Assembly: GCA_001799675.1 (NCBI GenBank)
Contig: MGTX01000032.1
Coordinates: 1 to 64,000, forward strand
Direction: 5' to 3'
From: Elusimicrobia bacterium GWA2_66_18
Lineage (GTDB): Bacteria > Elusimicrobiota > Elusimicrobia > UBA1565 > UBA9628
Length of the DNA stretch: 64,000 nt
The position numbers were made by a program, and so were the translations under genes. Below the pieces are notes generated by a model. That model made no database searches and was not told the origin of the DNA. It saw only the letters and a program-made list of their open reading frames with translations. This document shows, one piece after another, positions 100 to 13,135 of the stretch; the stretch's first letter is position 1; each line of letters begins with the position of its first letter.

Positions 100-290
100 A
101 GGTCTGCCGGTCCTACCCGGGATAGGACCAACGACCCTCGAAACTCACGGCCTTCTCGGTTACCCTCATGATAGTCCTGAAGTAACCCCTCAAACCTGTG
201 TAGCCCAGGGGATTGGCCCTGGGGTATCCACGACTCGACCGTAATCGAGTGAGGCCACGGGAAACGAATAAAATCGTTTCCCTTTTTTTA
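100..290 (+). ncRNA. Candidate structured RNA, copy 1
   Basis: This copy and the one at 6525-6710 (minus strand) share an architecture. Perfect stems lie at 109-115/123-129, 204-210/217-223 and 233-238/245-250, followed by a terminator hairpin. The linker GGGGTATCCACGA and the loop ATTGG are identical in both copies, while the stem bases differ in a compensating way, for example ACTCGA/TCGAGT here and ATCCGA/TCGGAT there. Covariation with conserved loops indicates selected RNA structure. I do not recognise the family. It could be a riboswitch-like leader of the gene at 345 or a free small RNA, since the terminator ends 56 bases before that gene. Confidence 0.65.
259..289 (+). terminator. Rho-independent terminator of RNA copy 1
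   Basis: A 9-bp perfect stem (GGGAAACGA with TCGTTTCCC) and a 6-base A/T loop are followed directly by seven T residues. It closes the structured RNA and lies ahead of the start codon at 345, so it either ends a small RNA or works as a conditional attenuator. Confidence 0.85.
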
Positions 291-344: not shown

Positions 345-803
345 ATGAGCAAGACATGTGATGCGTCAGGATTGCAGGCCCCGCCCAGGGAGACTTCGGC
401 GGGCAGGCAGGTGCTGGATGACCGCGGTACGGCGGCGAGCCGCTTCAACCGCGGTCTGAAGAGGGTCGGGTCGCCTGTTCTCGTTGAGAAGGAGAGCGAC
501 CCGTGGCGGTATCTGTTGCGGCTGGTCGCGGCGGAATATCCTTACTGCACCATGTACGGCGTGAACATCGTGGGCGGGAACATCGTCTCCTGCGAAAACA
601 TCCAGAGGAGCCTCCTCTTCGGCCCGGAAGGGGGGAGGAGCGCCTCTGAGCCCGCGTTCGACGAGTATTGGGAGGCGCTCAAGGAGCTTTGCGGCAAGGT
701 CAAGGCCGGGACTCTCATTGAGCTTCATTTCAACCAGAGCCGGCCGGTGAGTGCTCGCAAGAGCGAGGGCGGACGCCGATTCAGGCGGTTACTTCAGCAA
801 TGA
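345..803 (+). CDS. Hypothetical protein downstream of structured RNA
   Basis: A 152-aa soluble protein with no signal peptide and no family I recognise. The start ATG at 345 is preceded by GGAGAGG at 7-8 bases, a good ribosome-binding site, so I prefer it to upstream in-frame codons that overlap the RNA terminator. The N-terminal 50 residues are polar and likely flexible. The middle (about residues 50-130) is more hydrophobic and contains a Tyr-rich patch (AAEYPYCTMYGV). It converges on the hydrolase gene at 809 with only 5 bases between stops. Its position behind RNA copy 1 at the edge of the peptide cluster suggests, but does not show, membership of the same system. Confidence 0.6.
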   Translation: MSKTCDASGLQAPPRETSAGRQVLDDRGTAASRFNRGLKRVGSPVLVEKESDPWRYLLRLVAAEYPYCTMYGVNIVGGNIVSCENIQRSLLFGPEGGRSASEPAFDEYWEALKELCGKVKAGTLIELHFNQSRPVSARKSEGGRRFRRLLQQ

Positions 804-808
804 GAAGG

Positions 809-1699
809 TCAAGCTTGCGATGTGCGAGCACTCCCATGGCGGGCAAGGAAGGCTTCAATGGATTCGAGGTATGCCGCGGGCTCCTCGATCATGGCCATGT
901 GGGCGCTCCTTTCAAAGACAATGAACTCTGAGTCCGGCACAAGTGAGTGGTAGTGGCGCGTGGACTCGGGAGTCGCCTCATCGTATCGCCCGCAGGTGAA
1001 CAGCGTAGGGACGCGGATTCGGCCCAGCTCGCGCGTCCGGTCATAATCCTTGAGGTTGCCCGTCGGATGGAATTCGCTCGGGCCCCACATATGGATGTAG
1101 ACCTGCATGTTGGCGTCGGCGAACGCATCGAGAACGTCTTGAGGGAGAGGGTTGATCCTACAGGCAAACCGCTTGACGTACTCCATGACCGCTTCCTGGT
1201 ATTCCTTGCTTTCCGTCGTCCCTTCGGCTTCGTGTCGGAGCAAGATGGCCTGCACGTTCCCCGGCAGTTCCAGGCGCAGCCGGTCGGCATCTTCCTTCCA
1301 CATCCGAGCGCTCAAGCACGGACTAGAAAGGATCAACGCCTCGACGCCGACGGGATTTGTCAGCATGTAATCGACAGCCAACATCGTTCCCCAGGAAGCG
1401 CCGAGCAGGATCACGCGATCAAGATGGAGCGCCTGGCGGACTTGCGCCAGCTCGCGGACGAAGCGGGCCGCGTTCCAAAGAGAGAGGTTGTCGGGGCGAT
1501 CGGATTTCCCGGAGCCGAGCTGGTCGTAGAAGATCACTTGCCGGTCGCGTGCCAGATCTCGGATCGGCAATAGGAGTGTATGGCTGAAGCCCGGCCCTCC
1601 GTGGAGGACTAGAATCGGCGTCTTTGAGCCGCTGCCGAATGTCCGGACGTAAACCCGGCCTCCTTCGACCGCGACGTAGGTCTCGTGAGCGGTGGTCAC
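809..1699 (-). CDS. Alpha/beta hydrolase, proline iminopeptidase-like
   Basis: A 296-aa alpha/beta-hydrolase of the proline iminopeptidase (S33) type. HGGPG (residues 33-37) forms the oxyanion hole, GASWG carries the nucleophile Ser, and CGRYDEATP and SAHMAMIEEP carry the likely acid and His. These are the hallmarks of enzymes that release N-terminal Pro or other small residues from peptides. There is no signal peptide, so it is cytoplasmic. The start is a GTG overlapping the TGA of the histidine kinase (GTGA), so it is the last gene of the operon that includes the peptide-binding protein, YcaO and kinase. That position suggests trimming of the modified or re-imported peptide, or self-immunity; this is inference. 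Confidence 0.85.
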   Translation of the reverse strand: MTTAHETYVAVEGGRVYVRTFGSGSKTPILVLHGGPGFSHTLLLPIRDLARDRQVIFYDQLGSGKSDRPDNLSLWNAARFVRELAQVRQALHLDRVILLGASWGTMLAVDYMLTNPVGVEALILSSPCLSARMWKEDADRLRLELPGNVQAILLRHEAEGTTESKEYQEAVMEYVKRFACRINPLPQDVLDAFADANMQVYIHMWGPSEFHPTGNLKDYDRTRELGRIRVPTLFTCGRYDEATPESTRHYHSLVPDSEFIVFERSAHMAMIEEPAAYLESIEAFLARHGSARTSQA

Positions 1700-3624
1700 T
1701 CTTCTTGGCTCCAGGGTGGTTCTTTGCCGACCACCCCGCGCAGATGCTTGTAAGCGGCGAACCTCGCCGCTTCATGCCCCGTCGCCAAGTGGATATCCTG
1801 GAAGCCCAGGTCGCGAACGCTGAGCGACTCCTGGGCGCCGTTCACGCCGTCCGCCAGATCGGCATCGATGTAGATGGGGGTTTCATGGCTGATCGCGGGA
1901 GCTTCTTTGAAGAACTCCGCCACCGTGGAGAAGGACTGGAACTTCTTGCCGGATCGCGTGGCCGCCATCGTCCATGTCATCCGCGTCAGGGGATCGTCGT
2001 CGATCAGAACGGCGTCGAGGCGCTCAGGAACTTCATCTTTCTTGATACGAATCGGCACGAAGCCGGCCAACGATTTCGGGATGAGCCTTGCCTTGAGCCT
2101 CAGAGAATCGGCCAACACGCCCTTCTCTTCGTAGCGGCTCGTCACGAGGATGGTGCGGGCGCCGATGCCGAGTTCCTCGGCGAGGCTGAGCCCCGTGTCG
2201 CGATAGCCCACCAGTTCGTAGTCCAGCAGATAGAGCGGGTCCTTGGCCGCTCGCGCGTCCGTCCGGGCCCAGGAGCGCAGTTCGGCGGGCGTCGAGAAGT
2301 GCAGGACCTCGACGCCGTGATCTTTGACGTGCACCGACTCGAAGCGCCCTTGCCAGACTTGGTGGATGCTCGCGTCGTCGTCGAGGACGACGATCGGGGC
2401 GCCGGGAGACAGGACGAGGCCCGAGACGAACCACTCCGGCGGACGGGCGCGCGGCAGGCGGATGGTCACGGCCGTGCCCTTTCCAAGCTCCGAGTCGATT
2501 ATGAGACTCCCGCCCCAGGACCCGACGCTCGTCTTGGCATGGTAGAGGCCGAGGCCGGAGCCTCCGGCCTTGCCGTGCGTCTCGCCCCTCTGCCCCAGTC
2601 GCGCGAGCACGTCTTGGGGGATTCCTTTGCCGTTGTCCTGGACCCGGATCTCGGTGCTGTCGCCGTTTGCGGCGAGTTGGACGGTGACCAGCCCCTTCTC
2701 CGGCAGGGACTCCACCGCGTTGTTGATCAGATTCGAGAGCACGCGTTTGAATTCGGACGGCGGGATCGCGGCGAAGAGGCCGTATGAGGACGGATCGAGT
2801 CGCGAATCGATCTCGATGCCGATTTGGGCCCGGAACTGCAGCCGCTTCTCGGTGATGAGGGAGTCGACGATGTTCGACAGGAGCTGGGCGGAGCCGGGCA
2901 CCGCCGCGGCCGGTTCATGGCCGCTTTCGCCCCGCGCCTCCTTGCGGTTCTGTTCAAGCAGGTTGTTGGCGATATCCCGGATGCGTCCGACGGCGCCGCG
3001 TATCATGACTCGTTTCTCTTCTGGAAGCTGCGAGAGGTCCTTTAGGACTGTGTCGAGAGCGGCCACCGGGGACCGGATATCATGAGCGACTTGAGCGGCT
3101 AGAGAGGCTTGGGAATCTTTGAGCTCGAATTTGAGGCGAAGTTCGTATTCGCGCGCGAGCTGCGCATTTTCACGGCGGACCACGGGGATGGAGATGAGGA
3201 TGAGCACCAGCCAGATCGCTATGGCGGTGGGAATCGAGGTCCATCTGGAGTAGTAGAAAAGAAGCTGCCCCGCCAGGCGGGTGGACTGCTCATCGAAGTA
3301 AATGGGAACGGCGGCCGTGCGATAGAGCAGGATATTCTGCGGTCCAAGGCCGATCGGCACTGAAAACGGCGCATCGCCGTTCTTGGGCACCCACACTGCT
3401 CCTCGGAAATCGCGAGATATCGGTCCGGACATTTGCGTTGAAACAGACCGGATATCGCCGGAGATGAGAGGCTCTCTCAGAGCTTCCGTCAGTTGCCCGG
3501 CCAAGCGATTCTTGAAATGGCCCGTGAACGCCACCGTCAGTCCGACGAGGGCAACGAGGGTGAGCAGCTGAAAGACCAAGAACTTGCGAAGGAGATTGTT
3601 GAGCGGCGGAGCTTTCATGTTCAT
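1696..3624 (-). CDS. Hybrid sensor histidine kinase with two receiver domains
   Basis: A 642-aa membrane kinase. TM1 lies at about residues 14-33 and TM2 at about 131-152, flanking a periplasmic sensor of about 100 residues. A HisKA domain follows (QVAHDIRSP, with the phosphorylated His), then an HATPase domain with an N box (NLINNAVE), DNGKGIP and GSGLGLY. Two receiver-like domains follow: IVVLDDD...LYLLDYE and DAVLIDDDPLTRMTW...IYIDADL. The start ATG overlaps the YcaO stop (ATGA). The kinase is closely related to the partial kinase at 62873. Placed directly behind a peptide-binding protein and YcaO, it probably senses the modified peptide. The NtrC-type regulator at 10550 is a plausible target, but this is inference. 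Confidence 0.9.
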   Translation of the reverse strand: MNMKAPPLNNLLRKFLVFQLLTLVALVGLTVAFTGHFKNRLAGQLTEALREPLISGDIRSVSTQMSGPISRDFRGAVWVPKNGDAPFSVPIGLGPQNILLYRTAAVPIYFDEQSTRLAGQLLFYYSRWTSIPTAIAIWLVLILISIPVVRRENAQLAREYELRLKFELKDSQASLAAQVAHDIRSPVAALDTVLKDLSQLPEEKRVMIRGAVGRIRDIANNLLEQNRKEARGESGHEPAAAVPGSAQLLSNIVDSLITEKRLQFRAQIGIEIDSRLDPSSYGLFAAIPPSEFKRVLSNLINNAVESLPEKGLVTVQLAANGDSTEIRVQDNGKGIPQDVLARLGQRGETHGKAGGSGLGLYHAKTSVGSWGGSLIIDSELGKGTAVTIRLPRARPPEWFVSGLVLSPGAPIVVLDDDASIHQVWQGRFESVHVKDHGVEVLHFSTPAELRSWARTDARAAKDPLYLLDYELVGYRDTGLSLAEELGIGARTILVTSRYEEKGVLADSLRLKARLIPKSLAGFVPIRIKKDEVPERLDAVLIDDDPLTRMTWTMAATRSGKKFQSFSTVAEFFKEAPAISHETPIYIDADLADGVNGAQESLSVRDLGFQDIHLATGHEAARFAAYKHLRGVVGKEPPWSQEE

Positions 3625-4607
3625 CCGTAGAAGTGAGGGACCGGCGCAAGAGTCCCGAGAGGTCTTCCGTTGAAGCGTTCAAGCCGGCGCAGCGACGGCT
3701 CATCCAGGGGAGCCGATCCGAATTGCGGACGCATGAACTGCTCGGATTGGGCCTGAACGACCACGAGGGGGAGGTCCGGCAGGATGGCGTCGAGGCTTTC
3801 TATTCTGCGGAACCGTACGTTTGAAATCGAGACATCTTCATGTTCCCATGATCCACGGTTGCCCGGCGGCGACGCCAGAAGCGTCTGTCGGACATAGTCC
3901 AGGCTCTCGGCGGTCTTGGCCATCCAGAAATGCCAGCGGGGATCGCTTCTCGCCGCGAGCGCCGCCAGGTCTTCCTCCTGATGGATTCCGCCGGCGAATA
4001 TGGCCGTGGCCGAACGAAGGCACTCAAGCAGCGCGTGCAGCGAGGCTGTTTCCGTCGAAGCGCCGCTTCCGAATCCTGCGACGAATCCGGGAACGGCGCT
4101 ATGAGAATCTTCGCTCCAGCAGAAAGCGACGCATGCTCGCGCGTCTCGCGTCGGACGCATCTCGCGGACATGCAACGATAGGGAGTGTTTTCTCAGCATC
4201 CCGCTCAAAGCGCTCAAGGTGTTCCGCGCGACAATCGATTCCAGGGGAACCGGGCGCAAATAAATCCCGCAAAAGTGATGGCAAAGCGCGCGGTCTATGC
4301 CGAGAAGTTCAAGGTAGGCATGATGGGACGCCTGCTCCATGTCAAGATGCGCGGCGGTCGCCCACGGTTCGACGAGATCCGATACGGCGGCGCGTTCCAT
4401 CGCCTCGGCGACTGCCTTCGTGAACGCGGCGGATTCATTCCGGTCCATACCCTGTCCAACATGCCTTATGCCGCGAAGAGGGATGGATACCCGGTAATCG
4501 AAGTAGCCCGGAAGCCATTCTTCCGGCCACGTCACGCGGACGACGTCAAGGTCGAGGCGGCCGGCGTTGGCGAGAGCCCAGGCCGTTAGGGGCGTTCCAG
4601 TCGCCAT
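3621..4607 (-). CDS. YcaO-domain protein
   Basis: A 328-aa YcaO enzyme. Members use ATP to activate peptide backbone amides for azoline, thioamide or amidine formation. The two expected nucleotide-site blocks are visible: a first block around residues 55-75 (DRNESAAFTKAVAEAMER) and a second around 180-205 (FGSGASTETASLHALLECLR). The C-terminus is APVPHFYG, not the PxPxP tail of classical cyclodehydratases. It has no fused leader-binding domain; the ThiF-like protein at 9029 could provide that. The start overlaps the end of the upstream gene by 22 bases and its stop overlaps the kinase start, so it is translationally coupled. A divergent paralogue lies at 60375. The exact chemistry is unknown. 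Confidence 0.88.
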   Translation of the reverse strand: MATGTPLTAWALANAGRLDLDVVRVTWPEEWLPGYFDYRVSIPLRGIRHVGQGMDRNESAAFTKAVAEAMERAAVSDLVEPWATAAHLDMEQASHHAYLELLGIDRALCHHFCGIYLRPVPLESIVARNTLSALSGMLRKHSLSLHVREMRPTRDARACVAFCWSEDSHSAVPGFVAGFGSGASTETASLHALLECLRSATAIFAGGIHQEEDLAALAARSDPRWHFWMAKTAESLDYVRQTLLASPPGNRGSWEHEDVSISNVRFRRIESLDAILPDLPLVVVQAQSEQFMRPQFGSAPLDEPSLRRLERFNGRPLGTLAPVPHFYG

Positions 4608-6160
4608 AGCGTGTCGCCTGCGTGCATTTTCGACAGATGCGGAGCCCAGGGCTTGCGGATGATGGTCGCATAGGGCGAGAACGCGATGGGTATCACATAG
4701 GCGTCGCTCAGGGTCTGGTAGTGGAGGTCTCGCAGCATCGGAATGCGTTTCGACTTGTCGGGCACTTCCATGTATCGACTCAGCCAGTCCGCGGCCTTCT
4801 TTCCGCGCAGGCTGAAGAAGTCCATGTGGGAATAGTAGGAAAGAAGCCCGATGTCCTCCAGGAAACTCATGTCGGTTCTCGTGAGAAAGACATCGGGCTC
4901 ATCAAGACCCTCTTTCTTGTAATCGACCAGTCCCGGAACCTTGCGGATGTACTGGATATGAGAGTTGGGAAAAGCCTTATGCACTTCGGGATCATCGCCG
5001 TTGAAACTCTTGATGATGTTCCAGATTGAAAGCGGCTCCGTGATGGCCTGATCTCCGCGCGAGTCTTCCCATTTTTGCGTTAATGTTTTTACTTGCTCGG
5101 TCGCAAGAGCGCCCTCTCCCGAAAAGGGGAATATCTGGTCCGCGGCTTCGAATCCCGCCCGTCCGGCATGTTGTTTTAAGAATAGTTTCTTCAGCGCCAT
5201 CCCAATGGCGATGCGCTGATTGAGATCGAGGCGCTTCATCCCTTTTTGAGTGAAGATCACCCCGTAAAAGCAGATCGGCAGGGTCGTGTGCAGGGTCACG
5301 TCGGGATGAGCGGCGGCGTATTCGATTTTGTCTTCCTGTGGATCGGTACCTACCTCAGGCACCACGTCCACGGTCCCCTCCGACATCAGTTGTAACGACG
5401 ACTTCTTGCTGTTGAGGGGGACAGGGTGGAGAATCAGTTCCTGCGGCATCTTGGGCGAATAGTGGAAGTGGTTCGGATTGGCCGAGAGCTCGATGTTCCC
5501 CTGGGGGCTATCCTTTTCCACGTAATAGGGGCCCGAGGTGTTCCGGTAGTCCCGGATGGCGAGCGTCTTGGGGTCGAGCGCGTCCCGAGGAATGACGGCA
5601 AAGTCGATCGCTGTGAGCATCGGGAAGAAGAACGGCATCGGCTTCTCAAAAAGGATGGTGAGGACTCGGCCGTTTTCCCGCACCTGCATCCCGGGGCAGG
5701 GGTCCGCCAATGTCTTGAGCGATTGGCCTGGGCACAGCATCGAGGCCAGATTCCCGTGAGTGTTCCCGCCGAGGATGAGGACGCGCTTGAACATGGCTTC
5801 CGCGTCGTAAGCATCGATGGCGCGGCCGTCGATGGTCTTGAGATTCTCGCGGATGGTAAAGCGAGCTTCGTTGCCGGTCCATTCAAAACGCTCGGCGATC
5901 GCCGAAACTAAACGACCATCAGCGGAATATTCCACAAGTGGCGAGTAGATATTGGCCAAGAAGACGTATTCGTAGGCCAGGTGGATCCTCATGGGATCAT
6001 AGGACGACGCGGAACCGGCAGGTGGGAATGCGATGGAGAGCTTCGTCTTGAGCTGAGGTTGTTTCATTTGTTGCTGGCTGATAACGATCCCGGCGATCGC
6101 GCCGAGGAGCGCGAGAACGACGGCAATCCTCCGACTCACGACGGTCGTCATATTTTGCAT
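4586..6160 (-). CDS. Oligopeptide-binding protein (SBP family 5), membrane-anchored
   Basis: A 524-aa extracellular solute-binding protein of family 5 (DppA/OppA type). A single hydrophobic N-terminal segment (about residues 9-28) looks like an uncleaved anchor or signal peptide without a lipobox Cys. Typical family blocks include IYSPLVEYSADGR, the N-lobe DAEAMFKRV and TSGPYYVEKD. No ABC permease or ATPase genes are nearby, so it is unlikely to be a conventional importer. Translational coupling to YcaO and the sensor kinase suggests a ligand-presenting co-receptor. The ribosome-binding site GGGGGA lies inside a strong hairpin just upstream (6163-6198). Confidence 0.88.
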   Translation of the reverse strand: MQNMTTVVSRRIAVVLALLGAIAGIVISQQQMKQPQLKTKLSIAFPPAGSASSYDPMRIHLAYEYVFLANIYSPLVEYSADGRLVSAIAERFEWTGNEARFTIRENLKTIDGRAIDAYDAEAMFKRVLILGGNTHGNLASMLCPGQSLKTLADPCPGMQVRENGRVLTILFEKPMPFFFPMLTAIDFAVIPRDALDPKTLAIRDYRNTSGPYYVEKDSPQGNIELSANPNHFHYSPKMPQELILHPVPLNSKKSSLQLMSEGTVDVVPEVGTDPQEDKIEYAAAHPDVTLHTTLPICFYGVIFTQKGMKRLDLNQRIAIGMALKKLFLKQHAGRAGFEAADQIFPFSGEGALATEQVKTLTQKWEDSRGDQAITEPLSIWNIIKSFNGDDPEVHKAFPNSHIQYIRKVPGLVDYKKEGLDEPDVFLTRTDMSFLEDIGLLSYYSHMDFFSLRGKKAADWLSRYMEVPDKSKRIPMLRDLHYQTLSDAYVIPIAFSPYATIIRKPWAPHLSKMHAGDTLWRLERP

Positions 6161-6162
6161 AA

Positions 6163-6198
6163 CGTCCCCCAGGCCCGCTGCCGGGCCTGGGGGACGTG
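6163..6198 (-). promoter_or_regulatory. Long hairpin covering the SBP ribosome-binding site
   Basis: A 16-bp perfect inverted repeat (arm ACGTCCCCCAGGCCCG) with a 4-base loop ends 2 bases from the ATG at 6160. On the minus strand the 3' arm contains GGGGGA at the right distance to serve as Shine-Dalgarno. There is no T-run after it, so it is not a standard terminator; control of translation or mRNA stability is more likely. Confidence 0.6.
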
Positions 6199-6259
6199 AG
6201 CAAGTCCCCTGTTCAGCGTAAGACCATACGGTTCAGTCTACCGCCAAGAAGGTCTAGAA

Positions 6260-6445
6260 TTAAGCGACGGACGAGTTCGGCGTCGTCTTATCCGGGCAGA
6301 TTGCGCCGATGAGCACCGGGGCCGTCCGAACCTTGACGGCCTTGTTGAGGCTGGCGCGGAAAGTCGTTCCGCCCTTCAGGTTCGCCCAGGCACTGGCAGC
6401 GAGAATCAAGGCCCCGGTCAGCAGGACGGCAATCTTATTCTTCAT
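6260..6445 (-). CDS. Small secreted peptide (61 aa)
   Basis: A 61-aa peptide with a clear signal sequence: MKNK, then a hydrophobic core, then ASAWA as a probable cleavage site near residue 21. The mature part of about 40 residues has one Cys, several Thr/Ser and the stretch NLKGGTTF. A strong GAGGAGAAA ribosome-binding site precedes the ATG at 6445. It lies between the terminator of RNA copy 2 and the peptide-binding protein. I do not recognise the family. It could be a secreted cofactor, a cargo or a second peptide signal. Confidence 0.7.
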   Translation of the reverse strand: MKNKIAVLLTGALILAASAWANLKGGTTFRASLNKAVKVRTAPVLIGAICPDKTTPNSSVA

Positions 6446-6524
6446 TTCGCGTTTCTCCTCGAATCCACGTCATTGTACCAGTTGCAGGTACGGACAATTT
6501 ACAGTTTACGGCCGGCGCATTCAA

Positions 6525-6569
6525 CGAAAAACCAGAGACTGCGGCGCAACAGCGCCGCGAGTCCCTGGT
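6525..6569 (-). terminator. Rho-independent terminator of RNA copy 2
   Basis: On the minus strand a long GC-rich stem (outer arms CCAGGGACT / AGTCTCTGG, inner GCGGCGC / GCGCCGC, loop TGTT) is followed by TTTTT. It occupies the same place relative to the conserved hairpins as the terminator of copy 1. Confidence 0.85.
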
Positions 6570-6710
6570 CTCATCCGATTTCGGTCGGATCGTGGATACC
6601 CCGGAGCCAATTCTCCGGGCTACAGAGCCGCCTTGTGGGCGATAAGAACAGTGTAAGAGAGCCTCCGATCTCGATCCAGGGGCGTATGGCCTATTTGCAG
6701 ATAGGCCCAT
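6525..6710 (-). ncRNA. Candidate structured RNA, copy 2
   Basis: Second copy of the element at 100-290, on the minus strand. Stems lie at 6701-6707/6688-6694, 6613-6619/6600-6606 and 6585-6590/6573-6578. The loops and the linker GGGGTATCCACGA are conserved while the stem bases covary with copy 1. It lies after the 44-aa ORF and ahead of the 61-aa peptide gene and peptide-binding protein, so it may gate expression of the sensor half of the cluster or be released as a small RNA. Confidence 0.65.
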
Positions 6711-6739
6711 TGTCCTGGAGAAACTTAGCATGGTCATCT

Positions 6740-6874
6740 CTAGAGTTGCCCGAGCAGCCGGAGGGGGGTCGTAATCAGCAAGGAAGTCGCGTCATTCTCC
6801 ATCCTGACCTGATGCGCGCCATCCCGTTGCATAACGGCGCAGAACTTCTGAAGACAGTCCATGATGATTTTCAT
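6740..6874 (-). CDS. Small ORF (44 aa) behind the internal sigma-54-like promoter
   Basis: A 44-aa ORF starting MKIIMDCLQKFC, with a strong AAAGGAG ribosome-binding site 6 bases before the ATG. It is the first gene after the -24/-12-like promoter at 6925-6943. It has two Cys, is amphipathic and shows no obvious signal peptide. I do not recognise it. The well-placed promoter and ribosome-binding site argue that it is translated; a precursor peptide, leader peptide or small regulator are all possible. Confidence 0.6.
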   Translation of the reverse strand: MKIIMDCLQKFCAVMQRDGAHQVRMENDATSLLITTPLRLLGQL

Positions 6875-6924
6875 GACGACTCCTTTCCGTGATTTTATAT
6901 TTGACGGCAGCGTCGCCCATTGTG

Positions 6925-6943
6925 GAGCAATTTATATGCCGGA
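6925..6943 (-). promoter_or_regulatory. Sigma-54-like promoter P2
   Basis: The minus strand reads CCGGCATATAAATTGCTCC. GG and GC are spaced as in the canonical TGGCAC-N5-TTGC sigma-54 promoter, and the -12 box TTGCT is exact. The promoter at 10441-10460 shares almost the whole motif. A dyad ACA.AAATTT.TGT just upstream (6945-6960) may be an activator site. Confidence 0.65.
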
Positions 6944-6967
6944 CAGAAATTTGTGTATACCGCGCGC

Positions 6968-7996
6968 CTATTTCATCAACGCGCGCCGAAGTTCGAATTC
7001 GGGGGCGCCCGTTGCCCGTATTTGCCCGACGGTCCGTGCCAGATATTCCCTGCATGATGTCGGAAGCTTCAATCCGGGGGCCGTTAACCACAGGGCCAGC
7101 GTTTCCAATCGGAGGCGTTGCGGGTCGTCCATCTCCATTTCCGGGGCGATGAGTCTTTCAGGAGTCTCGCTCCATGACTCCCAATCTTCCGCACCGGATT
7201 CTGCCGAGAGCCCGCAAGCGACCATGGCGGCAGGAGCAATCGGGGCCTTGAACGCAGCTTCAACGTCAGATAACAGGTCATGTGGAAGACTTCCGGTCCG
7301 ATTCGGCTGACGAAGGATTTTCGCCATATATTCCCGCAGCCAGCGGAATATTTCAGGCGGGGTCGCGGCGCGGGTAATAAGTTCCCGTCGTAGTGTTTCA
7401 ACCTCGAGGTTCGAGAATACCCAGGTCTGAGAAGCATAATGATCGAAAACGGCGGCGTGGAAACCCATGGACTCCGCCATTTCGCGGAATAAGGGCTCGA
7501 ATGGGTCATGCGCACGCGCATAACGGTAGAACCGATTCTCCGGTCGGAAGAGATGCACAAAGACGATGCCGTCAGGCTTGAGCTTGCTTCGCAATTGAGC
7601 GATGAATTCGGGGGCGAGGACCCTGGGAAGCAGCACCCCTTCCGCGCCGTAAAGATCGACCCATATCGTATCGAAGAGCTCTTGGGTTTGCGCGATAAAC
7701 CTAAATGCGTCGTCTTTTACGGCCGTGAGATCCCAGTCGCACGATGGATGCTGGGACGTGTCGAGGTCAACTCCCGTCTGGCGATGGGTCTTGTCGGTCA
7801 ACGCAAGTCGGCGCGGGCCCGAGGCCCCCGCAAGACCCAGGGTCAGGGTGTGGCCTCCAGGCTTCAGAATCCCCGATAGAGCCCAGTCGTCCCAGTAGTA
7901 ATAGGTGAGAGCTTCACCGGGGGGATAGTAACTCACCAGCATGTCCGCAGCCTTTGGCTGTTCCGAAGTTGACTCGACGATTAATACGCCATCCAT
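6968..7996 (-). CDS. Spermidine synthase-like SAM-fold protein
   Basis: A 342-aa protein. Residues 1-150 resemble the spermidine-synthase/class I SAM-dependent fold, with a YYPPGEALTYYYWDD segment, a Gly-containing strand-loop (TLTLGLAGASG), and FDTIWVDLYGAEG followed by LKPDGIVFVHLF. The C-terminal half (about 200-342) is helical and unassigned. The start ATG at 7996 has a strong GGAGGAG site. The gene overlaps the MFS gene by 83 bases. It may transfer a methyl or aminopropyl group to the peptide, as MccD does in microcin C. The SAM-binding Gly loop is not canonical, so substrate and activity are uncertain. Confidence 0.7.
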   Translation of the reverse strand: MDGVLIVESTSEQPKAADMLVSYYPPGEALTYYYWDDWALSGILKPGGHTLTLGLAGASGPRRLALTDKTHRQTGVDLDTSQHPSCDWDLTAVKDDAFRFIAQTQELFDTIWVDLYGAEGVLLPRVLAPEFIAQLRSKLKPDGIVFVHLFRPENRFYRYARAHDPFEPLFREMAESMGFHAAVFDHYASQTWVFSNLEVETLRRELITRAATPPEIFRWLREYMAKILRQPNRTGSLPHDLLSDVEAAFKAPIAPAAMVACGLSAESGAEDWESWSETPERLIAPEMEMDDPQRLRLETLALWLTAPGLKLPTSCREYLARTVGQIRATGAPEFELRRALMK

Positions 7997-9032
7997 AGAC
8001 TCCTCCGACAGCAAAAGTTCCGTAAAAACCAAGACCGAGCGCTGCGACTGGGCTGATCCCAACTTCTGCGAACAGCCCCGAGAGAACGATGCCGCTTGCC
8101 AATCCGCAGTACTTCGCGCTCAGCGCATCATTGAATGCCGCATGCTTGGAGAGCCATTGAGTCTCCACGTAACCAAAGCAGAAGCCCCAAGCAAAAAGAA
8201 TTATTGGGATCATCCAGGGCGTCGACATGAGGAACGCCGCAGGAATGCCGATGAATGCGGCCAGGAACCATCGCTCGTAGTCTCCGCCCAGAGCATTTTG
8301 AAGCCTTGCCCCCAGGGACGCGGAGAGCATCGGGAGGCACGCATAGAGACCGACATGCCACCCATCCAGCCGCAGTAATCGCAACGTGATGGGATAAATC
8401 ATGTTGCTTATCGCTCCGATTGCGGCTCCTGCTAAAAAGAGTACGGCCAGTGTTGTTCGTGCGGATTCACAAGGGCGCGGCTGGGAAGCCTCAGATGAAG
8501 CGGCGGCGGTCGATTGGGAACTCAGTTGCCGTATCAGTAATGCGAGCATTCCCATTCCAACCAATCCCACCGCAGTATTTGAAATATGCCGCAAATGAGA
8601 AAAAATGATCGGGCTCGCAATCAGGCTGATGCAGGAGATTCCCCATAAGGCGGAGTTTCCCGCGGCAAGACCGCCGGCGCTTTCCCTGGAGAACCAGGCT
8701 TGCAGGGCGGGGATGAGGAGCGCTTCCATGATCCCCAATAGGAGCGCAAGGAGCGAGTATCCGAGCAGCCCTATGCCATCGCGCGTCGCTGCTGTTACGC
8801 ACGCGAATGCGAGCGCCGCTGCCAGAGCCAGAGTTCCTACCCCGCGGCGCCTTTCCGTCGCCGCTCGCCAATGAAATGCGAAAATTGCCGGAGCGAACAT
8901 GAGCGCCGTGAAAATCGTCATCCCGAGGAACCCGGGATGATTCTCCAGCAGAAGGTCAATGAGACCGAAGCGATAGATGCCGACGTTGACCAGGGCGATT
9001 CCCAGTGCAAGCGTCATTTTCACCGGCGTCAT
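7914..9032 (-). CDS. MFS transporter, probable peptide exporter
   Basis: A 372-aa polytopic protein with about 12 hydrophobic segments and a charged central loop (about residues 180-200), typical of the major facilitator superfamily. The start ATG at 9032 overlaps the ThiF-like stop (ATGA), so the two are coupled. In microcin C clusters an MFS pump (MccC) follows the ThiF-like MccB gene and exports the product; the same order here suggests export of the modified 17-residue peptide. The substrate is inferred from context only. Confidence 0.82.
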   Translation of the reverse strand: MTPVKMTLALGIALVNVGIYRFGLIDLLLENHPGFLGMTIFTALMFAPAIFAFHWRAATERRRGVGTLALAAALAFACVTAATRDGIGLLGYSLLALLLGIMEALLIPALQAWFSRESAGGLAAGNSALWGISCISLIASPIIFSHLRHISNTAVGLVGMGMLALLIRQLSSQSTAAASSEASQPRPCESARTTLAVLFLAGAAIGAISNMIYPITLRLLRLDGWHVGLYACLPMLSASLGARLQNALGGDYERWFLAAFIGIPAAFLMSTPWMIPIILFAWGFCFGYVETQWLSKHAAFNDALSAKYCGLASGIVLSGLFAEVGISPVAALGLGFYGTFAVGGVYGWRINRRVNFGTAKGCGHAGELLSPR

Positions 9033-10108
9033 GCCGTGCCCTCGCAGGTTCCGCATCCAGGTGTTGGCGGCACGTTCTCAATGCGCAGTGCGCAGGCGTT
9101 GATATCGAATTCGCCGCGACAATTGATGAATCGCGGCTGCTCGCATCCCGTGAGGACGCGAATGATCTCCGGCATCTGGAGCGCCGCCATCGCGACGGTG
9201 GCGGGGAGGAATACCCCGGACTTCATTTCAGCGAGCCGCAGCTCTCCGAAGGGGGAGACCTTCTTCGCCGTCGTCCTCTCATAGCAATGCCAACAGGTTG
9301 AGCGTCCGGGAATCAGCGTGGGGGGAACGGATGTCATGTGTCCGTTATAGCCGCCTGCGGGAATCAGCGGGATTCTCAGGGGATAGCAGGCATCGAAAAG
9401 CCACCGGCTGGTTTCATCCATCGATGGGTAGTCGGCGCAGTTGATTACGAGATCGACGTTCGGCAGAATCTTATTGATCCATCCCGCCTCGCGAGTAAGT
9501 CTCTCGACGTGAGTCGTGACCGACGTCTCGGGGGAAATCTTCCCGATCACCGACCTGAGCACCTCCACCTTCAGTTCCCCAATGTGGTCGGCATAAAATA
9601 TCTGCCGTCCCAGATTTCCGATTTCGACGCGATCGTGATCCGCGATGGTGAGGTTCCCGACCCCCACGCCGGCCAACTGGACGGCCATATGGGAGCCGCC
9701 GCCGCCGGCTCCAACGATCAGAACCCTGCTGCGCAACAGCCTGTGTTGGAGATCTCTGGCTGTCTGGCCGGCCGGGGCGAGCCCCGAGAAATAGACGAGT
9801 TGGCGCTTCAGCCGAGCCTCGTAATTCGGCGGGAATTCCACCTTCGAGTCCGATGCGGCGTCTCTGAAAATCTTGTCATCGATGAGTCCCTGGAAAAAAG
9901 CCGCCAAATCCATGGGCGCCAGATCCGGTATGGCGAGACATTCCAGGATTTGTTGGAGAGGCCGTCTCCCATCGGCGAGCGGGATCGCGCGCCCGCCGAT
10001 CTCGTCGATTTCATAGGTGATCACCTGCGCTCTGTGGCAGCAATAAAATCGCATTGACGAGGGGCCTACGTCGATGAGCGTTATGTGTTCCCGCATGATC
10101 GGCTGCAT
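9029..10108 (-). CDS. ThiF/MccB-type adenylating enzyme with N-terminal peptide-binding domain
   Basis: A 359-aa E1-like enzyme. Residues 1-80 resemble the leader-binding (RRE-like) domain of 'ocin-ThiF' RiPP proteins (HITLIDVG...LADGRRPLQQIL). Residues 125-340 are a ThiF fold with the nucleotide loop GAGGGGSH, the DHDRVEIGNLGRQ block and two zinc CxxC pairs (CWHC, CGTC). Such enzymes activate a peptide C-terminus or partner a YcaO protein. AAAGGAG precedes the ATG, and the gene lies 69 bases after the second 17-residue peptide gene. It is the central enzyme of the cluster. Both an adenylating and a leader-presenting role are possible, since the ATP-site residues look intact. Confidence 0.88.
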   Translation of the reverse strand: MQPIMREHITLIDVGPSSMRFYCCHRAQVITYEIDEIGGRAIPLADGRRPLQQILECLAIPDLAPMDLAAFFQGLIDDKIFRDAASDSKVEFPPNYEARLKRQLVYFSGLAPAGQTARDLQHRLLRSRVLIVGAGGGGSHMAVQLAGVGVGNLTIADHDRVEIGNLGRQIFYADHIGELKVEVLRSVIGKISPETSVTTHVERLTREAGWINKILPNVDLVINCADYPSMDETSRWLFDACYPLRIPLIPAGGYNGHMTSVPPTLIPGRSTCWHCYERTTAKKVSPFGELRLAEMKSGVFLPATVAMAALQMPEIIRVLTGCEQPRFINCRGEFDINACALRIENVPPTPGCGTCEGTA

Positions 10109-10131
10109 GTTTGTTCTCCTTTCCGCCGTTC

Positions 10132-10163
10132 GCCGCCCGCTCCAAACGAGCGGAGCGGGCGGC
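10132..10163 (-). promoter_or_regulatory. Hairpin between peptide gene B and thiF-like gene
   Basis: A 12-bp perfect inverted repeat (GCCGCCCGCTCC with GGAGCGGGCGGC, 8-base loop) lies between the stop of the second peptide gene and the ThiF-like start, with no T-run. It may stabilise the peptide mRNA or reduce read-through, giving more precursor than enzyme. Confidence 0.55.
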
Positions 10164-10177
10164 CGTCGGCAGGATGC

Positions 10178-10231
10178 TTAGACGCCCTTGATGATGTCGA
10201 GGCGGGCGGCTTCGGTCTTGATGAGTTTCAT
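10178..10231 (-). CDS. Micro-gene B: 17-aa putative precursor MKLIKTEAARLDIIKGV
   Basis: An 18-codon gene encoding MKLIKTEAARLDIIKGV, preceded by AAAGGAGAAC at normal spacing. It differs from copy A by three residues (Q7E, S8A, G10R), with synonymous changes elsewhere. It has no signal peptide, no Cys and no Ser; the only conserved hydroxyl residue is Thr6. Its position immediately ahead of the ThiF-like enzyme matches MccA (7 aa) ahead of MccB. The conserved LDIIKGV end is probably what the enzyme sees. Confidence 0.75.
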   Translation of the reverse strand: MKLIKTEAARLDIIKGV

Positions 10232-10309
10232 GGTTGTTCTCCTTTGATGCATGGGTTTGATGGTCGCACTGCTTGGCGCGTTGAGCGCCGGACAAGAGTC
10301 TTTTGCGGA

Positions 10310-10363
10310 TTACACGCCCTTGATGATGTCGAGGCCGGCGCTCTGAGTCTTGATCAGCTTCAT
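10310..10363 (-). CDS. Micro-gene A: 17-aa putative precursor MKLIKTQSAGLDIIKGV
   Basis: An 18-codon gene encoding MKLIKTQSAGLDIIKGV, with a near-ideal AAAGGAGGAAAACC site before its ATG. It is the first gene after promoter P1 and lies 78 bases before copy B. The codons differ from copy B at many third positions while the peptide is kept, which is direct evidence that the protein sequence is under selection. Confidence 0.8.
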   Translation of the reverse strand: MKLIKTQSAGLDIIKGV

Positions 10364-10440
10364 GGTTTTCCTCCTTTCGTGCCCGATTTGTCATTCAGTT
10401 GCTGCTCGCCGCCTTCGTTCATGCGGCGACACCCTTCGGG

Positions 10441-10460
10441 GAGCAATTTTTATGCTGAAC
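10441..10460 (-). promoter_or_regulatory. Sigma-54-like promoter P1
   Basis: The minus strand reads GTTCAGCATAAAAATTGCTC. It matches P2 at the GCATA.AAATTGCTC core, with -12 TTGCT exact and the -24 dinucleotide AG in place of GG. About 70 bases of leader precede peptide gene A. The gene pair on the other side encodes an NtrC-type activator and a sigma-54-like factor. Confidence 0.65.
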
Positions 10461-10549
10461 GGTGTTGTGCGCCGCCCCGAGAGAGGGGAGGGGGCGGTCA
10501 GGCTTTTCGATTTTCAAATGAAAAATAATTGGTGTAAGATGGAGGTCCA

Positions 10550-11905
10550 ATGGACAAGCTGAAGATCCTGGTCGTCGAAGACGATCCGCTCGCCCGGAAG
10601 ATCATGGAGGCGCAGCTGAAGGGGCACGATGTCGAGTTCGCCCACGACGCTCCGTCCGCCCGCCGCAAGATCGCGAGCAAGCGCAGCGAGGTCTGCTTCA
10701 TCGACCTCAAGCTCGGCGACAAGGACAACTTCGGCGGCTTGGAGCTCATCCCCGAGGCGCTGGCCGCCGGCACGTACTCGGTCGTCATGTCCGCGCACGA
10801 CTCCGACAAGATAGTCGAGCGTGCCTACGCCCTGGGCTGCGAGGACTTCTACGCCAAGGGCAACGAGTCCGAGAACGTCCAGGCGGTCCTGAAGCGCTTC
10901 CTGCGAAAACGCCAGGAGGCCCGCGCGGACCGCATCTTCCAGGATCAGTTCGTGACCGAGGACGGAGCCACGCGCGCGGGCATCTCCTCCGCGCTGCGCT
11001 ACGCGGGTTCGGAACTACCGATCATGATCCTCGGGCCTTCCGGCTCTGGAAAGACGAACCTGGCCCGGATCATCCATGAGCGCTCCGGCCGCCCCGGTCA
11101 GTTCGTGGCGATCAACTGCGCGGCCTACACGGAAGATCTGCTGGAAGCGGAGTTATTCGGCTACCGCAAAGGGGCCTTCACTGGCGCTGCGGACAGCCGC
11201 AAAGGCAAGCTCCTGGCGGCTGACGAGGGCACGTTGTTCCTGGACGAGGTCGGCTCGATGAGCCTCAATATGCAGACCAAGCTCCTCAAGGCCATCGAGG
11301 AGAAGTCCTTCTACCCTCTCGGCTGCGACCGGCCCGAGACCTCGCGCTTCCGGGTCATCAGCGCGACGCTGGAGGACATGCCGGCGCTGGTGAAGGCTGG
11401 GAAGATCAGATTCGACTTCTCGCAGCGCATCCGCGGCCTGACGATCGGGCTCTCGCCCCTCTCCAAGCGGAAGGGGGATATCCTCCCGTTGATCGGGTTC
11501 TTCACCCGCGGCGGAAGGCGGCTGTCCTTCGCCGAGGAGGCGAAGCGGAAGCTCCTGGGTTACGAGTGGCCGGGCAACGTCCGCGAGCTTCGGAAGTTCG
11601 TCGAACTCGCGACGGTGGGCCAACCCGGACGCATCACGGCGGAGGCGGTGGCGGAGTTGCTCGCGACGGCGCGCGTCGAGGCCGAGCCGGATGAATTCAT
11701 CTCGGAAGCGCAGTACCGGCTGGCGTTGGACAAGGGCCTCGATCACGCCGTGGAGCGTTATGTGGACGCGATCATCCACCGCAACCTGACGGAGAACGCC
11801 GGGCGCAAGACCCAGGTCCTTTCCGACCTGAAGATATCGACGCGCATCCTCTATGCGTCCTCCCGGAGAAGCGGGAAGCCGGAGGGGAAGAACCATGGGA
11901 AATGA
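10550..11905 (+). CDS. NtrC-family response regulator (sigma-54 activator)
   Basis: A 451-aa protein with the complete bacterial enhancer-binding layout. The receiver is at residues 1-120 (EDD acidic pocket, FIDLKLG phospho-Asp, VVMSAHD, YAKG). The AAA+ domain follows, with Walker A GPSGSGKT, the sigma-54 contact loop GAFTGA, Walker B GTLFLDEVG and WPGNVREL. A Fis-type helix-turn-helix lies at the C-terminus. GGAGGT precedes the ATG, and a plausible -10 (TGTAAGAT) sits just upstream. It is divergent from the peptide operon and overlaps the next gene. It probably activates P1 and P2 with the sigma-54-like protein at 12095. Confidence 0.92.
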   Translation: MDKLKILVVEDDPLARKIMEAQLKGHDVEFAHDAPSARRKIASKRSEVCFIDLKLGDKDNFGGLELIPEALAAGTYSVVMSAHDSDKIVERAYALGCEDFYAKGNESENVQAVLKRFLRKRQEARADRIFQDQFVTEDGATRAGISSALRYAGSELPIMILGPSGSGKTNLARIIHERSGRPGQFVAINCAAYTEDLLEAELFGYRKGAFTGAADSRKGKLLAADEGTLFLDEVGSMSLNMQTKLLKAIEEKSFYPLGCDRPETSRFRVISATLEDMPALVKAGKIRFDFSQRIRGLTIGLSPLSKRKGDILPLIGFFTRGGRRLSFAEEAKRKLLGYEWPGNVRELRKFVELATVGQPGRITAEAVAELLATARVEAEPDEFISEAQYRLALDKGLDHAVERYVDAIIHRNLTENAGRKTQVLSDLKISTRILYASSRRSGKPEGKNHGK

Positions 11906-12098
11906 CGACGCCCTGACAAGCCTCGTGCACGACATCAAGGCAAAATGCGCCAACCTCAAGAGCGCGGCGGCCATGCTGCGCGGGGAGGCTTCCAAGGAAG
12001 AGCATGAGCTTCTCAGGCTCATGAGCCGGCAGGCGCGCTCCCTGGCCGATGAGATTTCAGCCTACCAGGCTCGCCGCCTGGGCGAACGCTTGAAGTGA
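11895..12098 (+). CDS. Stand-alone HisKA-like protein (67 aa)
   Basis: A 67-aa protein whose whole length looks like the dimerisation/phosphoacceptor helices of a histidine kinase. SLVHDIKAKCANL matches an H-box (compare VAHDIRSPVAAL in the kinase at 1696), and a second amphipathic helix follows (ELLRLMSRQARSLADEI). There is no ATP-binding domain. Its ATG lies inside the end of the NtrC-type gene (11-base overlap), and its end overlaps the sigma-54-like gene. It may be a phosphotransfer intermediate between the hybrid kinase and the regulator. The family assignment is from motif only. Confidence 0.65.
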   Translation: MGNDDALTSLVHDIKAKCANLKSAAAMLRGEASKEEHELLRLMSRQARSLADEISAYQARRLGERLK

Positions 12099-13135
12099 AG
12101 TTCCGGACCGCGACGTCGTCGCGCACCGGCGTCCAGGCGGGCATGAAGCTCGCCCGCCTGATGGAGATGTCGGAGGGGGACTTCGAGTCCCGCGTCCGCG
12201 AGCTCGAAGGCGATCCTGTTTTCCGCCGCCTGCTCGACACGCGGGTCATCGCGGTCCAGCCCTATGACAGCGCCGGTTTCGCGGCTCGCCGTTTCGGCGG
12301 CTGGGGGCTGAGGACGTCCGGCGACGGTCTTTCCTCGGTCCTGGATGGTCAGGGAGAGATGGCGAAGCTCCTGCACAAGGTCGGCCAGGAACGCTTCGAG
12401 GAATGCTTCCTTCGCGACGAGGCCATGACCGACGCGGAGCGCGCGCGCCTCTGTAAGATTCCCCGGGAGGAAGCTGCCAAGCTCCGGGAGATGGTCAACC
12501 GCCTCTACATCCAGGCCGAGTTCGACGGGGCTTCCTCGGAAGCCGCGCCGCCGAAGGTCTACAGCGCGGTCGCCGGGATCATGGTGGAGGACGGGCGCGC
12601 CGCCCTCGCCTTTTTCAACCGCGAGATTTGGAAGGGGCGCTATCGGGTCGACGAGCATAAGCGGCGGCAGCTGCTCGACGCGATGTCCGCCGCCGAGGCC
12701 AAGCGCGCGGACAGGATTCTCCGCGACCTGGAGTTCCTCGACCGGCGCAAGACCACGCTGTATCGCCTGCTCGAAGTCCTCATCGAAGCTCAAGCCCGGT
12801 TCTTCGTTTCCGGCGATCCTGACCAGCGTGAGCCGCTGACTCAGCGCGCCGTGTCCGAGAAGCTGGACGTGCTGCCGAGCGTCTTCAACCGCCTGATATC
12901 GAACAAGTCGATCGAGCTTCCTTGGGGTCTTGAAACCCCTCTCAGGACGCTTTTCCCCAGCCGTAAGTCCCTGCTCCTGGACCGTCTCCATGAACTGATC
13001 CGGGAGACTCCCTCCGCCACGGACGATGAGCTGAGCAAGCTGCTCGCCCGCATGTATGCGGCGAAGCTGTCCTGCCGCTCCATCGCCCAATACCGGGCCG
13101 AACTCGGCCTGGGCACCAGCCGCACGCGGCGGTAG
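12095..13135 (+). CDS. Divergent sigma-54 (RpoN-like) factor
   Basis: A 346-aa protein, shorter than the usual 430-500 aa. The N-terminus (KLARLMEMSEGDFESRVREL) aligns with RpoN region I but lacks its Gln richness. The DNA-binding part is recognisable: LTQRAVSEKLDVLPSVFNRL resembles the RpoN helix-turn-helix, and SCRSIAQYRAELGLGTSR corresponds to the RpoN box (ARRTVAKYRE-type), with several box residues changed. The acidic region II is essentially absent. It is co-transcribed with an NtrC-type activator beside two near-consensus -24/-12 promoters, so I infer a dedicated alternative sigma-54 for this cluster rather than the housekeeping RpoN. Confidence 0.82.
   Translation: MKFRTATSSRTGVQAGMKLARLMEMSEGDFESRVRELEGDPVFRRLLDTRVIAVQPYDSAGFAARRFGGWGLRTSGDGLSSVLDGQGEMAKLLHKVGQERFEECFLRDEAMTDAERARLCKIPREEAAKLREMVNRLYIQAEFDGASSEAAPPKVYSAVAGIMVEDGRAALAFFNREIWKGRYRVDEHKRRQLLDAMSAAEAKRADRILRDLEFLDRRKTTLYRLLEVLIEAQARFFVSGDPDQREPLTQRAVSEKLDVLPSVFNRLISNKSIELPWGLETPLRTLFPSRKSLLLDRLHELIRETPSATDDELSKLLARMYAAKLSCRSIAQYRAELGLGTSRTRR

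Follow-up and report, generated by a model that had tools for sequence, protein, structure and literature searches.

A probable plug-in RiPP island in an Elusimicrobia genome, combining a 17-residue peptide/ThiF cassette with a sigma-54 paralog and a predicted 2'-deoxyguanosine-gated sensor operon

The first 64,000 nucleotides of contig MGTX01000032.1 from Elusimicrobia bacterium GWA2_66_18 (hereafter the window; contig C32 of a 2.79-Mb assembly in 34 contigs) carry a 12.3-kb locus at positions 809–13135 that is probably a plug-in island for a ribosomally synthesized and post-translationally modified peptide (RiPP). A cassette of micropeptide genes, a ThiF-like enzyme, a putative exporter and a spermidine-synthase-fold protein is likely switched on by a dedicated sigma-54 paralog and an NtrC-type activator, and the adjacent sensor operon is predicted to be gated by 2'-deoxyguanosine. 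The order of the cassette genes, the 17-residue peptide length, a hairpin between the peptide and ThiF genes, a locus-restricted promoter word, riboswitches with terminators and the reassortment of these parts between genomes were all observed directly. Judged by comparison of relatives, the conserved blocks are three: the peptide/ThiF cassette, a trio of regulators with its promoter word, and a sensor operon behind a riboswitch. Comparisons were made within a near-genome set of 58 genomes (Elusimicrobiota group) and a phylum set of 340 genomes, with loci labelled L and genomes G, and ten locus proteins were scanned against Pfam and NCBIfam. The cassette comprises, in order of transcription:

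10444–10455, minus strand: sigma-54-type promoter word GCATAAAAATTG with -24/-12 spacing, upstream of the peptide genes
10310–10363, minus strand: precursor peptide 1, MKLIKTQSAGLDIIKGV, 17 amino acids (aa), good ribosome-binding site
10178–10231, minus strand: precursor peptide 2, MKLIKTEAARLDIIKGV, 17 aa, good ribosome-binding site
10123–10172, minus strand: strong GC-rich hairpin between the last peptide gene and the ThiF gene, present in all five ThiF loci
9029–10108, minus strand: MccB-type ThiF adenylyltransferase with an N-terminal domain like a RiPP recognition element (RRE), assigned by profile and fold
7914–9056, minus strand: exporter resembling the major facilitator superfamily (MFS), assigned by position and hydrophobic segments, with no family match of its own
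6968–7996, minus strand: spermidine-synthase-fold protein with its ATG at 7996 (listed open reading frame [ORF] start, 8062)

The two 17-codon genes reported in an earlier note on this DNA are thus both present upstream of the ThiF gene. That note had also asked whether homologous loci lack such genes; micropeptide genes precede ThiF in all five ThiF loci (window, L015, L016, L017 and L018). The nine peptides are all exactly 17 residues long, and in our alignments Met1, Lys2, Leu3, Leu11, Lys15 and a C-terminal Val or Ile at position 17 are invariant. Recurrence of both the cassette and the peptide length in all four relatives found is more than chance would give. Because both the length and the kind of last residue are fixed, as in the mcc system, chemistry at the encoded carboxyl end would fit. 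The hairpin behind the peptide genes folds at -38 to -52 kcal/mol in the five loci, compared with -20 to -30 in base shuffles; all 13 pairs form in every sequence, three pairs are changed on both sides, and the covariation score was matched by 1 of 500 shuffles. No run of T follows it, so it could stabilize a short mRNA just as well as terminate transcription.

The ThiF protein scores 153.9 bits to PF00899, three strands and three helices make up an N-terminal domain in its AlphaFold model, and its best full-length fold match is MccB, all of which bears out the earlier description of a ThiF/MccB-type enzyme with an RRE-like N terminus and supports RiPP-type peptide modification. ThiF is thus fused to such a domain, and a short precursor gene lies directly upstream of it in five of five loci. 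The family is rare: 12 proteins share at least 56% identity, counting the window protein, and those relatives carry the name Elusimicrobia. It occurs in 5 of the 58 near genomes (six are listed at E 1e-20, the sixth, G049, being a partial 37% match) and in 5 of the 340 phylum genomes at E 1e-40; the nearest cassette-bearing genome belongs to the same genus as the window. The two remaining assignments stood in part. For the proposed MFS pump, neither Pfam nor NCBIfam gave a match, but nine hydrophobic segments exceed the threshold and one of three homologs scanned matches MFS_1 weakly (13.3 bits, cut-off 33.4). The spermidine-synthase-like protein is a weak match in sequence, below its cut-off (22.1 bits against 22.9), whereas its fold, that of SpeE, supports the name better.

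This arrangement resembles microcin C (mccABCDE; MccB structures 3h5n and 6om4), which is described in PMC6495379 with the same order of micropeptide, hairpin, ThiF enzyme with an N-terminal peptide-binding domain, MFS protein and S-adenosylmethionine (SAM)-type transferase, and with a near-fixed precursor length; the earlier comparison with the MccABC order of tiny peptide, ThiF and MFS therefore holds. According to the same account, MccA is conserved in length and ends in Asn, most members having seven residues with longer exceptions, the C-terminal Asn is what MccB chemistry rests on, and in the E. coli mcc operon a terminator hairpin at the same place, between the peptide gene and mccB, lets the peptide outnumber the enzymes (PMC6495379). 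A strict microcin C relative, in which ThiF would link a nucleotide to the peptide end to make a Trojan-horse antibiotic, accords with the MccB fold and the mcc gene order but is unlikely: with 17 residues and a Val or Ile at the end, none of the nine peptides of the window family is seven residues long or closes with Asn, and no MccE- or MccF-like gene was found among the ten locus proteins scanned. The window cassette also differs from mcc in its likely control by a sigma-54 paralog. New chemistry is expected, since the 17-mers lack the Asn on which microcin C chemistry depends.

IndF, a ThiF-like enzyme of Streptococcus pneumoniae that forms a Trp-Ile indolylamide macrocycle, is similar by description (not by sequence comparison) in its RRE-ThiF fusion, its short peptide with a C-terminal Ile and the placing of the alpha-carboxylate for adenylation (PMC12150305). 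Unlike the IndF substrate, none of the nine peptides contains Trp; Lys2 and Lys15 are kept instead. Pantocin A chemistry uses a Glu pair, and the 17-mers, unlike the substrate of the pantocin A enzyme PaaA (5ff5), have no conserved Glu. The cassettes also recall GrcB thiolactone and radical-SAM RiPPs, as described in PMC12250964, in being tied to a sensing system and in having exchangeable maturases. Those are tied to quorum-sensing operons, with GRC products being Glu-Cys thiolactones (PMC12250964), whereas the systems here are a sigma-54 factor, a two-component relay and a nucleoside riboswitch, and none of the nine peptides has the C-terminal Cys that would pair with a Glu partner.

The regulators lie on the opposite strand:

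10550–11905, plus strand: NtrC-type response regulator with a GAFTGA loop, clear family match
11895–12098, plus strand: 67-aa mini-protein with an invariant H-box-like histidine, candidate phosphotransfer protein, from alignment
12095–13135, plus strand: sigma-54 paralog with a Sigma54_DBD match and the RpoN-box-like RSIAQYR, from profile

Matches to NtrC and Sigma54_DBD are clear, as the earlier note had it. The sigma-54 paralog scores 60 bits to PF04552 (cut-off 22.8) and carries RSIAQYR in its C-terminal stretch, which we take to correspond to the RpoN box. It has no Pfam match to the N-terminal activator-interaction region or to the core-binding domain, and its full-length similarity to other sigma-54 hits is 25–33%. 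In the 58 genomes, 31 hits of the paralog family exceed 260 bits, compared with 62 hits below 145 bits that are presumably ordinary RpoN. Among 120 database relatives listed, the seven with an organism name are all Elusimicrobia or Elusimicrobiota. The 67-aa protein had been called a HisKA mini-protein; it has no HisKA match in the Pfam/NCBIfam scan, but its H-box-like His is kept in 16 of 16 sequences. Since an invariant His, a hybrid kinase and an NtrC receiver are all present, a phosphorelay from the hybrid kinase through the 67-aa His protein to the NtrC receiver would be the natural reading.

The promoter word GCATANAAATTG occurs just twice in the whole assembly, both times at this locus and on the minus strand, and each of the five ThiF loci has a GG-N10-GC-like word ahead of its peptide genes. 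The near-genome set holds 48 copies in 27 of the 58 genomes, compared with 11 for the reversed pattern. Nineteen of the 48 lie within 10 kb of a paralog against 0.17 expected, and 14 of 31 paralog loci have a word within that distance, while none was found within 20 kb of the 62 other sigma-54 hits. Flanking bases are also kept among 26 aligned instances (a pyrimidine two before in 26, T two after in 25 and C three after in 22). This private word supports the earlier proposal of a dedicated sigma-54/NtrC pair acting on the cassette. In L015 and L018, a second, outward-facing word follows closely behind the sigma-54 paralog gene. For natural-product loci of Myxococcus, too, sigma-54-type promoters and enhancer-binding activators are described (PMC7910581). 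There the cell's own sigma-54 system is used, according to that source, whereas here a separate, island-encoded paralog has its own promoter word.

Several observations weigh against this picture of a peptide cassette under a private switch. None of the nine peptides ends in the Asn on which MccB chemistry is said to rest (PMC6495379), and BLAST finds no similarity of the exporter and the SpeE-like protein to MccC and MccD, their likeness lying in position and the SpeE fold. Codon changes in the peptide genes show no purifying selection (1 synonymous and 6 nonsynonymous codons between the window and L015, both pairs). The hairpin covariation comes from five sequences in two groups and thus from few independent events; its double-sided changes were matched in 81 of 500 shuffles and its additional pair types in 468. 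Of 20 paralog loci examined, 12 yielded the mini-protein. Within 20 kb, 16 of the 31 paralog loci lack an exact copy of the promoter word, and for 29 of the 48 words no paralog stands within 10 kb. L017 holds a one-base variant of the word, and no paralog was found in its 75%-complete metagenome-assembled genome; as L017 keeps the pattern, ordinary sigma-54 may read the word. Finally, several words precede genes not recognized as RiPP maturases, most of which were not family-scanned: those for receiver-only proteins in L072 and L096, and genes of unknown kind in L073, L074, L086, L097–L099 and L101. The receiver-domain-like proteins directly behind further words are at L072 2424–2894 and 531–935 and at L096 2557–2982.

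Beyond the cassette lies the sensor operon with its leader, flanked by two riboswitches of the 2'-dG-II class (RF03165; PMC9295807, PMC8872408):

6928–6939, minus strand: second promoter word, GCATATAAATTG, ahead of both the 44-aa ORF and the riboswitch
6740–6874, minus strand: 44-aa ORF with a ribosome-binding site, candidate micropeptide
6560–6630, minus strand: 2'-dG-II riboswitch aptamer, 80.0 bits (cut-off 60), from the Rfam covariance model
6527–6570, minus strand: terminator, its 5' arm formed by the 3' P1 strand of the aptamer (ON-switch geometry)
6260–6445, minus strand: 61-aa micropeptide with an N-terminal signal-like helix
6162–6197, minus strand: strong hairpin between the 61-aa micropeptide gene and the solute-binding protein (SBP) gene
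4586–6160, minus strand: SBP_bac_5 protein with an N-terminal membrane anchor, no permease adjoining
3621–4607, minus strand: YcaO-like protein
1696–3624, minus strand: hybrid sensor kinase with two membrane helices, HisKA/HATPase and two receiver-like stretches (by eye)
809–1699, minus strand: proline-iminopeptidase-type hydrolase, clear family match
345–803, plus strand: uncharacterized gene behind the second riboswitch
193–263, plus strand: second 2'-dG-II riboswitch, 79.9 bits (cut-off 60), ON geometry, ahead of the gene at 345–803

All genes named in the earlier note are where it had placed them, with weak or absent family matches for the exporter, the YcaO-like protein and the 67-aa protein. 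Its two divergent units do not stand: the minus-strand genes form two units, separated by approximately 0.8 kb that contains the second promoter word, the 44-aa ORF, a 2'-dG-II riboswitch with its terminator and the 61-aa micropeptide gene. Both riboswitches, the hairpin after the 17-mers, the second word and the second micropeptide had been omitted. The peptide-binding protein, hybrid histidine kinase and peptidase that it had listed are all clear. The window YcaO scores 25.2 bits, just below the Pfam cut-off of 25.7, but its counterparts by position in L072 and L018 exceed it (32.6 and 31.6). No homolog of the 44-aa ORF was seen in the other ThiF loci; by eye, it shares FCAVMQ/ICALMQ with a 40-aa ORF downstream of the word at 5929 in L069 and is a candidate precursor of another kind.

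Of 101 hits above cut-off in the 58 genomes, 11 leaders were folded, and in every one the terminator starts inside the aptamer's 3' strand, an overlap read from the folds. Because of this overlap, ligand binding would block termination (an ON switch), and expression of the sensor operon is predicted to require abundant 2'-deoxyguanosine. In the window, a promoter word and the 44-aa ORF lie upstream of the riboswitch, an arrangement that would place the operon under both controls; no word was found at that position in L015, L018 or L072. An equal pair of aptamers occurs in L015/L010 and in L072. The class lies above cut-off in 31 of the 58 genomes and mostly far from paralogs (8 of 101 within 10 kb), which points to a wider signal that is not private to the islands. 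PMC8872408 places 2'-dG-II in Bacteroidetes; the difference here lies in its occurrence in 31 of the 58 Elusimicrobiota-group genomes and ahead of RiPP-island sensor operons, with the window aptamer above the family cut-off. The same genome has two more copies on other contigs, ahead of unrelated genes (L094 5058–5128 and L095 5215–5285), and one uncharacterized gene family recurs behind the class (window 345–803, L010, L072 3237–3608, L077 13401–13715 and L096 3208–3651).

The earlier note had read the locus as a single autoinducer circuit, in which a 17-mer modified by both ThiF and YcaO is exported, bound by the SBP and sensed by the kinase, which then fires its own cluster. All the parts do lie within 12.3 kb, the SBP belongs to oligopeptide-binding family 5 with no permease adjoining, and the kinase has a stretch between its two membrane helices. 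The blocks, however, come apart in relatives. The window and L015 share ThiF at 84% identity and near-identical peptides, yet their SBPs cannot be aligned; L015 has a radical-SAM protein in the YcaO slot, and the kinases match only from approximately residue 175. Conversely, the sensor operons of L018 and L072 are alike (SBP 67%, YcaO 79% and kinase 74%, including the N terminus), although L018 has a ThiF cassette and L072 a radical-SAM cassette (TIGR03975, 656.7 bits, cut-off 281.85), with no ThiF found in the L072 genome. In L017 the ThiF cassette stands alone among housekeeping genes without regulators, and neither it nor L015 has YcaO beside ThiF, so the question of whether ThiF and YcaO occur apart from the regulators in relatives is answered in the affirmative.

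The SBP-YcaO-kinase set also occurs without ThiF in L072, L096 and L014. In L096 the set comes with a riboswitch and a micropeptide, and neither a ThiF nor a paralog was detected in that genome; L014 (G000:C5, 4380–8715) is a second such set in the window's own genome, its kinase 79% identical over residues 162–544, without ThiF, promoter word or riboswitch. The same kinase core even adjoins SBPs of other fold families (Peripla_BP_6 in L076 and L086, NMT1 in L077). Like regulators also occur with unlike cassettes: L069 matches the window in NtrC (95%) and sigma factor (96.5%), yet its word is followed by a 40-aa peptide and a radical-SAM enzyme. TIGR03975 (659.4 bits) follows the word in L070, and an enzyme of SPASM type, scoring under its family cut-offs, does so in L075. 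By these comparisons the sensor tracks neither the peptide nor ThiF, and because the blocks reassort the 17-mer would not be its obligate ligand. A single circuit is therefore very improbable. As the same regulators are joined in relatives to other genes for peptide making, the island is likely a plug-in rather than one fixed circuit, with the regulators apparently serving as a chassis whose inputs and products are exchanged. In the L018 assembly (CP096137, 9140–12700 and 19950), the NtrC, ThiF, MFS, SpeE-like and kinase frames are each broken once, which could reflect sequencing errors or decay.

The sensor operon may instead have an autoinducer of its own: the micropeptide between riboswitch and SBP (61 aa in the window) would be modified by YcaO, or by the radical-SAM protein in L015, then secreted and sensed, leaving the 17-mer as output only. 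Small signal-like peptides adjoin the SBP in all five SBP_bac_5 operons examined (window, L015, L018, L072 and L096), they resemble each other by eye where the operons do (L018 and L072), and a modifying-enzyme gene lies in the same operon. A strong hairpin follows the micropeptide in the window, L018 and L072, as it does the 17-mers, but is not prominent in L015 or L096; the second sensor copy, L014, showed no peptide of this kind, and the same kinase core is used with small-molecule SBPs. Sec export after cytoplasmic modification would also be unusual. We regard this explanation as possible but doubtful.

In the plug-in reading that we prefer, the ThiF enzyme would grip the peptide by its RRE-like domain and adenylate the C-terminal Val/Ile carboxylate. 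The activated end might be captured by an internal Lys, for which Lys2 and Lys15 are candidates because both are present in all nine peptides, or by an added amine or nucleotide; the product would perhaps be aminopropylated and then released by the MFS-like exporter. The kinase would read an SBP-bound cue, and phosphate would travel from its receivers by way of the 67-aa His protein to NtrC; NtrC would in turn open the promoters of the sigma-54 paralog. Because one of these promoters lies upstream of the riboswitch in the window genome, feedback onto the sensor operon would pass only with deoxyguanosine.

A bolder and rather improbable extension would make the island a weapon-or-signal plug-in of a new kind. 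In it, exchangeable RiPP cassettes, with 17-mer, ThiF and aminopropyltransferase in the window and B12 or SPASM radical-SAM enzymes in relatives, would be run by a private sigma-54 switch with its own promoter word. The sensor operon, armed only by 2'-deoxyguanosine from decaying DNA, would both make and sense a secreted micropeptide of its own, modified by YcaO or a radical-SAM enzyme, and the 17-mer product, with its Val/Ile end activated, would represent a new class of ThiF RiPPs.

The plug-in island would assign 2'-dG-II riboswitches a role open to testing, that of gating the sensor of islands with peptide products, and would define a clade of MccB-type enzymes with substrates of exactly 17 residues. 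The promoter word of the sigma-54 paralog would be specific enough for genome-wide target finding, providing a handle for RiPP mining in an uncultured phylum.

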